DNA of 32,512 nt from an uncultured Clostridia bacterium. GTDB taxonomy: Bacteria; Bacillota; Clostridia; Christensenellales; Aristaeellaceae. Under the pieces are notes generated by a model. It made no database searches, was not told where the DNA came from, and saw only the letters and a program-made list of their open reading frames with translations. Positions 1,837-27,602 of the stretch are shown piece after piece. A program made the position numbers and the translations under genes. The first letter of the stretch is position 1; each line of letters opens with the position of its first letter. The DNA is taken from NCBI GenBank assembly GCA_944364075.1, contig CALVVZ010000011.1:1-32512 (forward strand), in the 5' to 3' direction.

Positions 1837-3276
1837 ATGAAACGGAAGGTTCAAATCTTATGTTTGCTGGCGCTCGCTCTTCTGGCGTTTGCCGTTGGCG
1901 CAAACGCTGAACGCTATATCACCAACGGAAGCTATACAGCTTATGTTGGTGAAAACGACTACACTTACCTGGAAGATCCTACGGGAGTAACCAAGGTACT
2001 GCAGACCGCTACCAAAGAATTGCTGTCCATGACAGACACGCACCTGTATTGTCTGACCATGGATGGCCGGCTGTACGATATTGATCTGGCGGCTTCTACC
2101 ACCAGCGTAGTTTCTTCTGCACCTACCCAGGCCGACATTGATGCCATCACTTCCAAGCCGCCGTATACGCTGGAAAATGGCACGCTTTCCGTTACAGGAA
2201 CTACAGGGATACCGGTGGTGGTCGCCACTGGCGTAACGCTGGCTGGCGCGAACACAACGAACCTCTACTTCCTGGATAACAACGGCGCTTCGCTGAAATC
2301 CATGCCGCTGGAAAGCATTGGCGGAGATACGCTGGTAGCAGCTACCCAGATCGGTCCCGGCTCCGCAGGCGCGTTATCCATGTCGGTCACCGAGAATGGC
2401 GTTGTGATTGTTGCAGCGGATCACTCCATGATTATCGTCAACCTCACCAACAACTCCTACAGCTACCAGGCTGCACCTTCCACGGATGTGGTCAGCGGAC
2501 TGCTGGTAGGTACCAAGCTGTATTATTACACTCAGGATCAGGATGGCGTATATCATGTAGCTGGACGCATCGACATTGCGCAGCAGCAGGATGCGCTGGC
2601 GACCGCTGCGAACGCTACTGCGGCAACCGCTACCGCCACGCCTACGCCTAAGCCTACGGCAACTCCCACGCCTAAGCGTACCGCTACACCCACACCTAGG
2701 GCAACTTCCTCTTCCAATAGCTCTTCCAGTTCCAACATCACTTATGGCAGCAGCGGTACCAAGGTGAAAAAAATGCAGAAACGGTTATCGGGGTTGGGGT
2801 ATCCTGTCGGCTCTGTGGACGGTGTATTTGGCGACAATACGCTTTATGCGTTGAACCTGTTCCAGGGCGATGTGGGTTATACGGAGCGCAAGTATGCGAA
2901 TTCCTCTACGCAGGAGAAGCTGAACAGCAAAAGCGCTCCCACCTACGACGCCTTCAAGGGACTGAAGAAAAATGATTCCGGCATCCGGGTAAAGATTCTG
3001 CAGACCTACCTGTATATTTATGGTTACAATCCCGGCGAGTTGGACGGCGTATACGGCGCCAACACAAAGGCCGCTGTGGAACGCTTCCAGTTTGCCAGCG
3101 GTATTCCCGTAACGGGTGAAGCGGATAAAACCACGCTTATTCTGCTTTATGGTCAGTCTGGACCGTCTTATCCCCTGCCCACGACGCCCACCGTTACCCC
3201 GACTTTTGGACCTGTTACGATGCCACCTGTGACCATGCCGCCTGTGACACCTGGCACGATTACCGACTTGAAGTGA
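1837..3276 (+). CDS. secreted protein with two peptidoglycan-binding repeats
   Basis: The 479-residue protein begins with a signal peptide (residues 1-24, likely cut after AxA in GANA). Residues 25 to about 260 form a domain of short repeated strands resembling a WD/DUF5050-like propeller, with phrases such as LYCLTMDGRLYDI and LYYYTQDQDGVYHV; I cannot name the family firmly. A Thr/Pro/Ala linker with TPTPK/TPTPR repeats and a Ser run (about 262-300) leads to two PG_binding_1-type modules (about 303-365 and 378-440). Each has the KxxQxxLxxxGY...DGVxGxxTxxAxxxFQ pattern. A Pro/Thr tail with repeated VTMPP ends the protein. It probably attaches non-covalently to the cell wall and may sense or scaffold there. 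AAGGAGG precedes the ATG by 10 nt. A strong hairpin follows 14 bp after the stop. Confidence 0.85.
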   Translation: MKRKVQILCLLALALLAFAVGANAERYITNGSYTAYVGENDYTYLEDPTGVTKVLQTATKELLSMTDTHLYCLTMDGRLYDIDLAASTTSVVSSAPTQADIDAITSKPPYTLENGTLSVTGTTGIPVVVATGVTLAGANTTNLYFLDNNGASLKSMPLESIGGDTLVAATQIGPGSAGALSMSVTENGVVIVAADHSMIIVNLTNNSYSYQAAPSTDVVSGLLVGTKLYYYTQDQDGVYHVAGRIDIAQQQDALATAANATAATATATPTPKPTATPTPKRTATPTPRATSSSNSSSSSNITYGSSGTKVKKMQKRLSGLGYPVGSVDGVFGDNTLYALNLFQGDVGYTERKYANSSTQEKLNSKSAPTYDAFKGLKKNDSGIRVKILQTYLYIYGYNPGELDGVYGANTKAAVERFQFASGIPVTGEADKTTLILLYGQSGPSYPLPTTPTVTPTFGPVTMPPVTMPPVTPGTITDLK

Positions 3277-3290
3277 CAGATTAACAACGG

Positions 3291-3321
3291 AGATCCGCTA
3301 TCCAAAGGATAGCGGATCTTT
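3291..3321 (+). terminator. terminator hairpin, left copy (interrupted T-run)
   Basis: AGATCCGCTATCC and GGATAGCGGATCT form a perfect 13-bp stem with an AAA loop. Only three Ts follow before the type-1 element begins with CAGACTG at 3322. The full T-run (TTTTTT) is found after the third copy of this hairpin at 3791-3796, so this copy looks like the left part of the original terminator, separated from its T-run by insertions. Confidence 0.8.
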
Positions 3322-3543
3322 CAGACTGTTGAAAAAGGCATATTTTTTTCATGGAACCGCAAGAAAAAATGAAGCTTCAGGTTCCCAAACTTGCAAGTAT
3401 TTCATAGCGTATGAGGACCGAAGGTTTCCAAAGGGCGATCGGGAAGCCCTTTGGTCGCGCCCGCAGGCGCGAAACCTTTTGTATCTGCAAGAATGCATAC
3501 AAAACTTGCAAAAAGAATGATAAAATATTTTGTCAACGCGCTG
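3322..3543 (+). mobile_element. type-1 structured repeat element, copy A1
   Basis: This non-coding 222-bp element has imperfect terminal inverted repeats (CAGACTGTTGA... and ...GTCAACGCGCTG). A second, inverted copy lies at 23662-23882; by eye the core (3390-3515) is about nine-tenths identical. The core can fold as a three-way junction: outer stem AGGTT/AACCT (3422-3426 with 3473-3477), arm CCAAAGGGC/GCCCTTTGG (3428-3436 with 3446-3454) and arm TCGCGCC/GGCGCGA (3455-3461 with 3466-3472). It is flanked by copies of the same terminator hairpin (3289-3315 and 3544-3570, one mismatch in 27 bp), as expected for a target duplication. No plausible protein is encoded. Confidence 0.75.
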
Positions 3544-3549
3544 GGAAAT

Positions 3550-3570
3550 CCGCTATCCAAAGGATAGCGG
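3550..3570. repeat. terminator hairpin, middle copy between two elements
   Basis: CCGCTATCC/GGATAGCGG with an AAA loop, identical to the hairpin cores at 3295-3315 and 3767-3787. This copy lacks a T-run; the type-2 element starts at the very next base. It is best read as the duplicated target shared by both insertions. Confidence 0.85.
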
Positions 3571-3766
3571 CAGGCTGTCAAAAAACCCCGGGGAGGCGTC
3601 GGAGGGGCCGAAGCCCCTTCGACTTTCATTCGTATCCGCCGGCTCTGCCGGCGGGGCGGGTTGTTGATTTTGCTTGCAAAATCAATTCCTTACAACTTCG
3701 GACGACCTCTGGTTGGCCGAAGTTGCTTTCTCAAAAAAGTGGCGGCGCCACTTTTTTGACACGCTG
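3571..3766 (+). mobile_element. type-2 structured repeat element, copy A2
   Basis: This 196-bp non-coding element begins CAGGCTGTCAAAAAA and ends TTTTTTGACACGCTG, giving 15-bp terminal inverted repeats (13 of 15 match). It is bracketed by perfect 21-bp direct repeats of the local terminator hairpin. It folds into five hairpins: 3598-3623, 3636-3654, 3664-3685, 3693-3725 (9-bp stem with a 15-nt loop containing CGACCTCTGGTTG) and 3731-3759 (13-bp stem). The inverted copy at 27377-27573 has compensatory changes in the fourth and fifth stems. A third copy begins at 32439. No ribosome site or credible reading frame was found. Confidence 0.8.
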
Positions 3767-3796
3767 CCGCTATCCAAAGGATAGCGGATCTTTTTT
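3767..3796 (+). terminator. terminator hairpin, right copy with intact T-run
   Basis: CCGCTATCC/GGATAGCGG with an AAA loop, followed by ATC and six Ts. Joined to the left flank at 3289-3294 it recreates a normal intrinsic terminator for the upstream peptidoglycan-binding protein gene. Transcripts reading through the first copy would carry both elements as a 3' tail and stop here. Confidence 0.8.
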
Positions 3797-3828: not shown

Positions 3829-3856
3829 TTGACGTGTCCTATGGATGGTGTATAAT
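3829..3856 (+). promoter_or_regulatory. argC operon promoter
   Basis: -35 TTGACG (3829-3834) and a perfect -10 TATAAT (3851-3856) are separated by 16 bp. The palindrome at 3861-3880 covers the expected transcription start, which suits repression. Confidence 0.8.
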
Positions 3857-3862
3857 ATGCAT

Positions 3863-3876
3863 TGTATTATTATACA
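3863..3876. promoter_or_regulatory. ArgR/AhrC-type operator (ARG box) candidate
   Basis: TGTATTATTATACA matches the ARG-box pattern TGAAT-N4-ATTCA in spacing and all but two positions, with perfectly inverted half-sites TGTAT/ATACA. It lies inside a larger palindrome (ATATGCA at 3854-3860, TGCATAT at 3883-3889). A similar box precedes the ABC transporter binding-protein gene (30359-30372). The regulator itself is not in the window. Confidence 0.6.
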
Positions 3877-3919
3877 CAATATTGCATATTTGCAAATCGT
3901 ATGGAGGGCGATCGAATCC

Positions 3920-4861
3920 ATGAAACTGTTCATAGACGGCAAGGAAGGGACTACAGGATTACGGATCTTCCAGCGTCTCCAAGGAAGGACGGATCTGGAG
4001 ATCATCCTGTTGCCTGAAAAATGCCGCAAGGATGTCCGCTCCAGGGAAGAGGCGATTAACGCCAGCGATATTGTTTTGCTATGTCTGCCCGATGAGGCGG
4101 CCCGAGAATCCGTATCGTTATTACATCGCCCGCAGACCCGTGTGCTGGACACGTCCACCGCGCATCGGACCCAGCCAGGATGGGCTTATGGATTTCCTGA
4201 GCTGTCCACACAGCATCGGGAGGCCATTTCCTCCGGACGCTTTGTGGCGGTTCCAGGATGCCATGCCAGCGGCTTTGTGGCACTGATCACTCCACTGCTT
4301 GCAGCCGGTTTGCTTTCTCCAGATGCTCCGCTAGCCTGCTACAGCCTTACAGGATACAGCGGAGGCGGCAAACGCATGATTGCGCAGTATGAAACTCCGC
4401 CGTCCGATCCCATGCTGGCCAGCCCGCGGGTTTACGGGCTTGGACAGCAGCACAAGCATCTGAGGGAAATGCAAATGATTCCCGGGCTTGCAGCTCCGCC
4501 TATATTTTCCCCTATCGTCGCACCCTATTACAGCGGCATGCTGGTGCTTGTTCCACTGCATAGCGCCATGGTTCATGCGGAACATCCCAAAGCGGCCCTA
4601 TGGGAATGCCTGGCTTCCCATTACGCCGGATCGCCCGTGGTTCACGTCCTGAGCGAGGATGATGTGAATGCCTGGCAAGGTTTTCTCCCGGCCCATGCGC
4701 TTGCTGGAAAGGACAGCATGGAACTGATGGTATTGGGCAATGATGAGCGGCTACAGCTAGGCGCATGGTTTGATAATCTGGGCAAGGGAGCGTCCGGCGC
4801 GGCAATTCAATGCCTGAACCTGATGCTTGGCCTTTCCGAGACCATGGGTCTCGCGCTATAA
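3920..4861 (+). CDS. argC: N-acetyl-gamma-glutamyl-phosphate reductase, short (class 2) form
   Basis: ArgC reduces N-acetylglutamyl phosphate to the semialdehyde with NADPH, the third step of arginine synthesis. The 313-residue protein opens with LFIDGKEGTTGLRI, the nucleotide-binding start of the shorter ArgC form rather than the GxxGYxG start of the common form of about 345 residues. Other marks are LLCLPDEAARE (54-63), LDTSTAHRT (76-84), YGFPEL and catalytic Cys114 in VPGCHASGF, then LTGYSGGGK. The start at 3920 gives this canonical N-terminus and follows GGAGGG by 11 nt; upstream in-frame ATGs overlap the promoter and operator. It heads argC-argJ-argB-argD, with argJ 18 bp downstream. Confidence 0.95.
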   Translation: MKLFIDGKEGTTGLRIFQRLQGRTDLEIILLPEKCRKDVRSREEAINASDIVLLCLPDEAARESVSLLHRPQTRVLDTSTAHRTQPGWAYGFPELSTQHREAISSGRFVAVPGCHASGFVALITPLLAAGLLSPDAPLACYSLTGYSGGGKRMIAQYETPPSDPMLASPRVYGLGQQHKHLREMQMIPGLAAPPIFSPIVAPYYSGMLVLVPLHSAMVHAEHPKAALWECLASHYAGSPVVHVLSEDDVNAWQGFLPAHALAGKDSMELMVLGNDERLQLGAWFDNLGKGASGAAIQCLNLMLGLSETMGLAL

Positions 4862-27347: not shown

Positions 27348-27376
27348 TATCCGGCCAGGAAATTCCTGACCGGATC
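27348..27376. repeat. 29-bp terminator hairpin, left copy
   Basis: TATCCGG...CCGGATC with arms ATCCGGCCAGGAA/TTCCTGACCGGAT is a hairpin repeated without a mismatch at 27574-27602. The type-2 element starts at the next base. The 128 bp before it (27220-27347), after the beta-helix gene, shows no other feature. Confidence 0.88.
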
Positions 27377-27573
27377 CAGGCTGTCGAAGAAGTGGCTTAC
27401 GCCACTTCTTCGAGGCAGCAAATTCGGTCAACCAGAGGTCGCCCGAATTTGTAAGGAATTGATTTTGCAAGCAAAATCAACAACCCGCCCCGCCGGCAAA
27501 GCCGTCGGATACGAATGAAAGTCAGAGGGGCTGCGGCCCCTCCGACACCTCCCAGGGGTTTTTCGACAGTCTG
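27377..27573 (-). mobile_element. type-2 structured repeat element, copy C (inverted)
   Basis: This 197-bp element is the inverted relative of 3571-3766. Its ends (CAGGCTGTCGAAGAA and TTTTTCGACAGTCTG) are inverted repeats matching at 13 of 15 positions. It is flanked by perfect 29-bp direct repeats of the local hairpin. Relative to copy A2, the long-loop stem has changed from CAACTTCGG/CCGAAGTTG to CAAATTCGG/CCGAATTTG (27419-27427, 27443-27451), and the end stem from TCAAAAAAGTGGC to TCGAAGAAGTGGC with matching changes opposite (27384-27413). The TTGATTTTGC/GCAAAATCAA hairpin and the loop CGACCTCTGGTTG are unchanged. Confidence 0.82.
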
Positions 27574-27602
27574 TATCCGGCCAGGAAATTCCTGACCGGA
27601 TC
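27574..27602. terminator. 29-bp hairpin, right copy with T-rich tail
   Basis: Identical to 27348-27376. On the plus strand it is followed by ATCTTTTTATTTTT, making an intrinsic terminator for the beta-helix gene. It is also the first structure met by minus-strand transcripts after the DUF1653 gene. Confidence 0.82.

Follow-up and report, generated by a model that had tools for sequence, protein, structure and literature searches.

We propose, at a probability of about 0.65, that a phylum-spanning lineage of the IS1182 family of insertion sequences targets extruded cruciforms at their four-way junction, with the structure of the DNA, and not the geometry of the transposase, setting the length of the target duplication, and that the IS1272 lineage makes a deletion from the same kind of target. 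Elements of the former lineage have ends starting with CAG and sit at the edge of a hairpin with one full hairpin copy on each side, the duplication tracking the hairpin in length over a range of 16-44 bp. The observation that led to this proposal comes from a 32,512-nucleotide stretch of DNA from an uncultured Clostridia bacterium (the window), in which two MITEs, A and B, interrupt what appears to be a single transcription terminator.

MITEs at a terminator in the window and in its genome

The terminator locus (3289-3796) lies between a gene for a PG_binding_1 protein (1837-3276) and a semialdehyde-dehydrogenase-type gene (3845-4861), as placed by mechanical call. It contains three copies of one hairpin, with the core CCGCTATCCAAAGGATAGCGG at 3295-3315, 3550-3570 and 3767-3787, exactly where an earlier note on this DNA had placed them (Table 1). 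The T-run (3791-3796) adjoins the third core only and the native left flank the first only, and taking out A, B and the extra hairpin copies leaves one hairpin followed by TTTTTT, so that the single ancestral terminator described in that note is recovered. The flanks of B are identical over 21/21 bp, and those of A agree at 32 of 33 positions once B has been removed (3289-3321 compared with 3544-3570 plus 3788-3793); the range of 21-33 bp that had been given for the duplications holds at this locus and extends to 16-44 bp across copies. As the left flank of A ends in GCGGATCTTT, which is absent from the copy to the left of B, the arrangement marks A as the earlier insertion, with 33 bp duplicated, and B as a later insertion into the right-hand copy made by A, with 21 bp duplicated. 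Neither MITE encodes a protein. Both have CAGNCTGTYRAAAAA-type terminal repeats, and the two elements, called different in the earlier note, are not unrelated to each other: one terminal-repeat system is common to A and B. No empty version of the locus was found among the 40 relatives searched, none of which is congeneric, and matches to the B element were confined to five of these genomes and were weak and partial at best.

Table 1. Hairpin copies, MITEs and target duplications in the window
Feature	Position	Strand	Details
Left target duplication of A (terminator hairpin copy 1)	3289-3321		33 bp; core 3295-3315; carries the native left flank
MITE A	3322-3543	+	222 bp; TIRs CAGACTGTTGAAAAA (3322-3336) and TTTGTCAACGCGCTG (3529-3543); without a transposase gene
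Hairpin copy 2	3544-3570		5' part of the right duplication of A; 3550-3570 doubles as the left duplication of B (21 bp)
MITE B	3571-3766	+	196 bp; TIRs CAGGCTGTCAAAAAA (3571-3585) and TTTTTTGACACGCTG (3752-3766)
Hairpin copy 3	3767-3796		Right duplication of B (3767-3787) and last 6 bp of the right duplication of A (3788-3793)
Native T-run of the original terminator	3791-3796		Inside the hairpin copy 3 segment
Left copy of 29-bp hairpin duplication	27348-27376		TATCCGGCCAGGAAATTCCTGACCGGATC
Second B-type MITE	27377-27573	-	197 bp; TIRs same as B
Right copy of 29-bp hairpin duplication	27574-27602		29/29 identical to the left copy; ATC and a T-run come next

The window also holds a second B-type MITE between two copies of a hairpin, and such elements are abundant in the genome to which the window belongs (G000). 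Matches to the element DNA lie at 90 places in this genome, and the CAGNCTGTYRAAAAA motif, allowing at most one mismatch, occurs 164 + 157 = 321 times, compared with 2 + 2 = 4 for a reversed-pattern control. Three further copies of B are 100% identical to the copy in the window and lie between different flanks, which indicates recent spread. Nearly all intact copies are bounded by a hairpin, usually on both sides, and the hairpin differs from site to site. One B copy (L011, G000:C1:56441-56636) has a 21-bp palindromic duplication, TACAAGGACTATACCCTTGTC, seemingly within coding sequence, suggesting that the targets are not terminators alone. Many contigs of this genome have a TIR 60-80 bp in from their start, with the breaks falling inside these MITEs; the MITEs are probably the main cause of its fragmented assembly (271 contigs).

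Duplicated segments and empty sites

A sample of 99 non-redundant elements with these ends was taken from the fetched loci. Matching flanks were present at 74 of them (25 ISs and 49 MITEs), with a length of 16-44 bp and a median of 26. To keep the profile anchored on the duplication itself, each duplicated segment was folded about its centre. In 65 of the 74 segments the symmetry axis falls exactly in the middle, and pairing inside the segment is about 91-99% at positions 2-9 and 66% at the outermost base, compared with 42% and 58% at the first two bases outside and approximately 20-40% farther out. Pairing of at least 80% from end to end was found in 60/74 duplications, compared with 16/1720 random segments matched for length and drawn from the same loci, and the duplication of hairpins is therefore not due to chance. 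An A-run or T-run stands at the outer edge of 55 of the 74 duplications, as in intrinsic terminators. The correlation between hairpin span and duplication length is moderate when hairpins are called automatically (Spearman 0.63, 65 sites), because adjacent A/T tracts lengthen some stems and because a neighbour of the duplicated hairpin sometimes comes out as the best one within a 100-bp stretch. The single duplication length per element seen in classical DDE elements is not found here: in one complete genome of Chakrabartyella piscis, about ten near-identical copies have duplications of 20 to 35 bp. Taken together, and at the level of sequence comparison, these profiles show that the target is chosen by secondary structure without a sequence consensus, and that the edges of the duplication coincide with the base of the stem. 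The target is very probably any inverted repeat that can fold into a hairpin, often an intrinsic terminator.

Copies without duplicated hairpins, which the earlier note had named as evidence that would count against it, do exist, as 25 of the 99 elements lack matching flanks; nevertheless, 21 of these 25 adjoin at least one hairpin. The hairpin lies on both sides in 11 cases, in which the two flanking hairpins are not matching copies, on one side in 10, and on neither side in four, while 235 of 3000 random edges adjoin a hairpin. Seven CAG-type loci (L212, L239, L248, L254, L255, L012, and L018) have a different complete hairpin at each end, and either recombination between copies or an attack of the two ends on two separate hairpins may account for them.

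Empty sites were available for three elements. In a Klebsiella oxytoca IncC plasmid, an element is flanked by a 16-bp hairpin duplication; when its flanks are joined around one 16-bp hairpin, they match 1040 plasmid records, of which 743 do so at 99% or more, and the alignment of the site with an element-free plasmid is exact. The site of ISEfa7 in E. raffinosus has one hairpin in a second strain, and the site orthologous to that of a MITE in genome G215 has one hairpin in a sibling species. Comparison of these occupied and empty sites shows, for two autonomous elements and one MITE, that the duplication occurs on insertion. The whole-hairpin duplication on insertion put forward in the earlier note is thus upheld by most genomic copies, by other genera, by autonomous relatives and by empty sites with one hairpin.

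Autonomous relatives and known hairpin-targeting systems

Autonomous elements were reached through a search with the IS1182-type domain PF13751, and GTDB species genomes were scanned, yielding 80 loci. The ends of the CAG-type lineage are CAGNCTGTCRAAAAA, CAGACTGCTGACAAAG, CAGACTGTAGACAAAG, and CAGACCRTCRACAAAG. Four intact ISs with CAGACC-type ends (L188, L190, L191, and L192; 1531-1588 bp) have intact transposases and perfect hairpin duplications of 22, 33, 31, and 25 bp, respectively; the transposase of L190 scores 431 bits against NF033551 (IS1182), for which the cut-off is 270, and contains the domains PF05598 and PF13751. The Chakrabartyella IS termini, CAGACTGTCAAAAAAG, follow the same pattern as the ends of MITE B, and the terminus of L191 and L222, CAGACYGYTGACAAAG, matches the right ends of MITE A. 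A and B are in all likelihood MITEs derived from this CAG-ended, IS1182-family lineage of DDE insertion sequences. The contrast drawn in the earlier note with the short, fixed duplications usual for DDE transposases was apt, but the cause is still a DDE transposase, of an IS1182-family lineage.

The lineage ranges over Clostridia, Lachnospiraceae, Enterococcus (ISEfa7), Paraburkholderia, Grimontia, and an IncC plasmid. Hairpin duplications measure 18 and 23 bp in Paraburkholderia xenovorans LB400, 16 and 21 bp in Grimontia hollisae, and 20 and 21 bp at ISEfa7 in plasmid records of Enterococcus, and loci with clean ends also duplicate hairpins in Oscillibacter, Lachnospiraceae, and others. Within the family to which the source of the window belongs, the terminal motif is present in 99 of 300 genomes. 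Unrelated-looking MITEs of approximately 160-320 bp with these ends in other genera also show hairpin duplications, and at one locus (L138, G072:C8:62000-67000, positions 1966-2750) four MITEs of about 164 bp stand in tandem, interleaved with five copies of a single 26-bp hairpin, an array whose sequence marks it as repeated insertion at one target. The hairpin-duplicating CAG elements cluster in a tree of the transposases from which IS1272 was left out, with two label changes compared with 8.0 in shuffles; upon bootstrapping, one label change was required in 66% of trees. Two distant IS1182-type loci of Paenibacillus rubinfantis (L280 and L281), with GAGCCCTGCAAAA ends, show apparent duplications of 8-10 bp that are not hairpins, and from these the target mode seems to differ between lineages.

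No CAG-type autonomous element or transposase is assembled in the window's own genome, which is 85% complete and broken at repeats, so that absence there is not proof. The similarity of the ends suggests that the MITEs of the window may be mobilised in trans by a transposase of the CAG lineage. Relics of IS1182 elements on contigs C94, C54, C146, and C171 of the same genome were rejected as parents, having ends that begin GGGCGTGTTGCA, as was the C8 transposase (42% identity), which has a C-terminal fusion and ends that are not of the CAG type. The relics on these four contigs and on C25 and C70 (in all, L049, L050, L052, and L104-L106) constitute a degraded second IS1182 group with GGGCGTGTTGCAGAAA ends. 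A further reason for their rejection is that a hairpin at their right end has itself been targeted by a B-type MITE (L073), with a 36-bp duplication.

A comparison with IS1272/TnSha1, the IS1182-family elements of staphylococci, shows both a close likeness and some clear disparities. These elements carry out "stem-loop replacing" transposition at hairpins, often terminators, in which the target hairpin is deleted and no duplication is left (PMC5678879; PMC4923244). Duplication of the whole hairpin is present in the IS1272 work as a hypothetical pathway only. The CAG lineage shares with IS1272/TnSha1 the transposase family and a hairpin target of variable length that has no sequence consensus and is often a terminator; unlike IS1272, it duplicates the hairpin intact, its TIRs start with CAG, and its transposases form a separate lineage. 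The IS1272 copy in an S. aureus plasmid that bears the fabI transposon has the ends GAGTCTGGGACATAAA and no duplication. Its transposase is 31% identical to the GGGG-ended group over 92% of the query, whereas a CAG query against a similar S. aureus plasmid gave 22% over 43% only. Removal of the hairpin without duplication, the IS1272-type trait, is not seen in CAG-lineage elements, whose empty sites hold one copy.

Other members of the family differ in other respects. ISMac2 MITEs of Methanosarcina are likewise MITEs of an IS1182-family element, but have direct repeats of 0-4 bp (PMC3852290) rather than the 16-44 bp found here. ISCfr1/ISPsp5, IS1182-like by annotation and with a related transposase, have the TIR TCTGTTGAAAAAGTAGC, and hairpin duplication was found in 0 of the three copies examined. 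ISEfa7 (IS1182-like, from Enterococcus) is a named member of the CAG lineage, with the TIR CAGACTGTAGACAAAG, and differs from the MITEs of the window in being an autonomous IS; no published account of its hairpin duplication was found in the open-licence literature searched. Within that literature, hairpin targeting itself is already published for IS1272, and what is new is that the hairpin is duplicated. Direct repeats of 0-60 bp may be listed for the IS1182 family, and long repeats of single members may already be on record in a database.

Proposed mechanism and its alternatives

Under the mechanism that we propose, the transposase would bind an extruded cruciform where its four arms meet, and each of the two 3' ends of the element would most likely attack a hairpin at its 5' foot, one on either strand. 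The two attacked phosphates would lie near each other at the junction whatever the length of the arms, and filling of the gaps would then produce a duplication as long as the hairpin; since the 5' feet would be neighbours in space at any arm length, a DDE enzyme of fixed geometry could give rise to variable duplications. Because both copies stay hairpins and the 3' copy retains the T-run, the terminator may survive and be targeted again, which would generate nested arrays such as the locus in the window.

Single-strand transposition into hairpins is known for IS200/IS605 and RAYT. With these other element types as precedent, and given that terminators are transcribed, an attack on the hairpin in single-stranded DNA, in the lagging-strand template or a transcription bubble, could be envisaged, with repair of the second strand afterwards. 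We regard this as unlikely for a DDE-type transposase and elements with TIRs at both ends, and the clean duplication of a whole stem needs both strands to be cut at opposite edges. Linear recognition, in which a transposase dimer would read symmetric half-sites at the ends of the palindrome in duplex DNA without extrusion of a cruciform, appears improbable: the targets are symmetric and their outer edges are biased (a T precedes CAG in 49/74 and an A follows CTG in 43/74), but they have no common sequence, and a cut spacing of 16-44 bp is too variable for a rigid duplex-bound dimer.

It is very improbable that gene conversion or tandem duplication made the hairpin copies once the element was in place, or that the hairpin travels with the element. 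Although hairpins are generally recombinogenic and some elements have different hairpins at their two ends, the sequence of the hairpin is specific to the site and matches the local empty site, identical B copies lie between unrelated hairpins, and the empty sites in IncC plasmids, E. raffinosus, and the sibling species contradict this explanation. Group IIC introns prefer terminator hairpins as their sites, and the likeness to them raised in the earlier note stands as an analogy of target choice and nothing beyond; retrotransposition of such an intron or a relative can be dismissed, as these are retroelements without TIRs or target duplication, whereas the 196- and 222-bp elements show no intron features and have DDE-type inverted termini with target duplications beside them, and a DDE transposase is all that their autonomous relatives encode.

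In conclusion, recognition of an extruded cruciform remains the reading that we prefer, and it bears on how transposons of this type are defined. The length of the target duplication of DDE elements is treated as a fixed signature of a family and is used to define elements, whereas in the present lineage it varies and is determined by the secondary structure of the target, an indication that cruciform DNA is recognised directly in vivo. The ends of such elements would be missed by annotation tools built to look for short direct repeats. That hundreds of MITEs are carried with little damage would be explained by terminators serving as a safe landing site, complete after insertion and reusable. 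The CAG lineage also offers a test of the duplication pathway that was proposed, but not demonstrated, for IS1272, and, if the cruciform reading is true, the two would be natural counterparts, with duplication switched to replacement by a shift in the position of attack. New insertions of the CAG lineage could then be read as a record of the palindromes that extrude in living cells.
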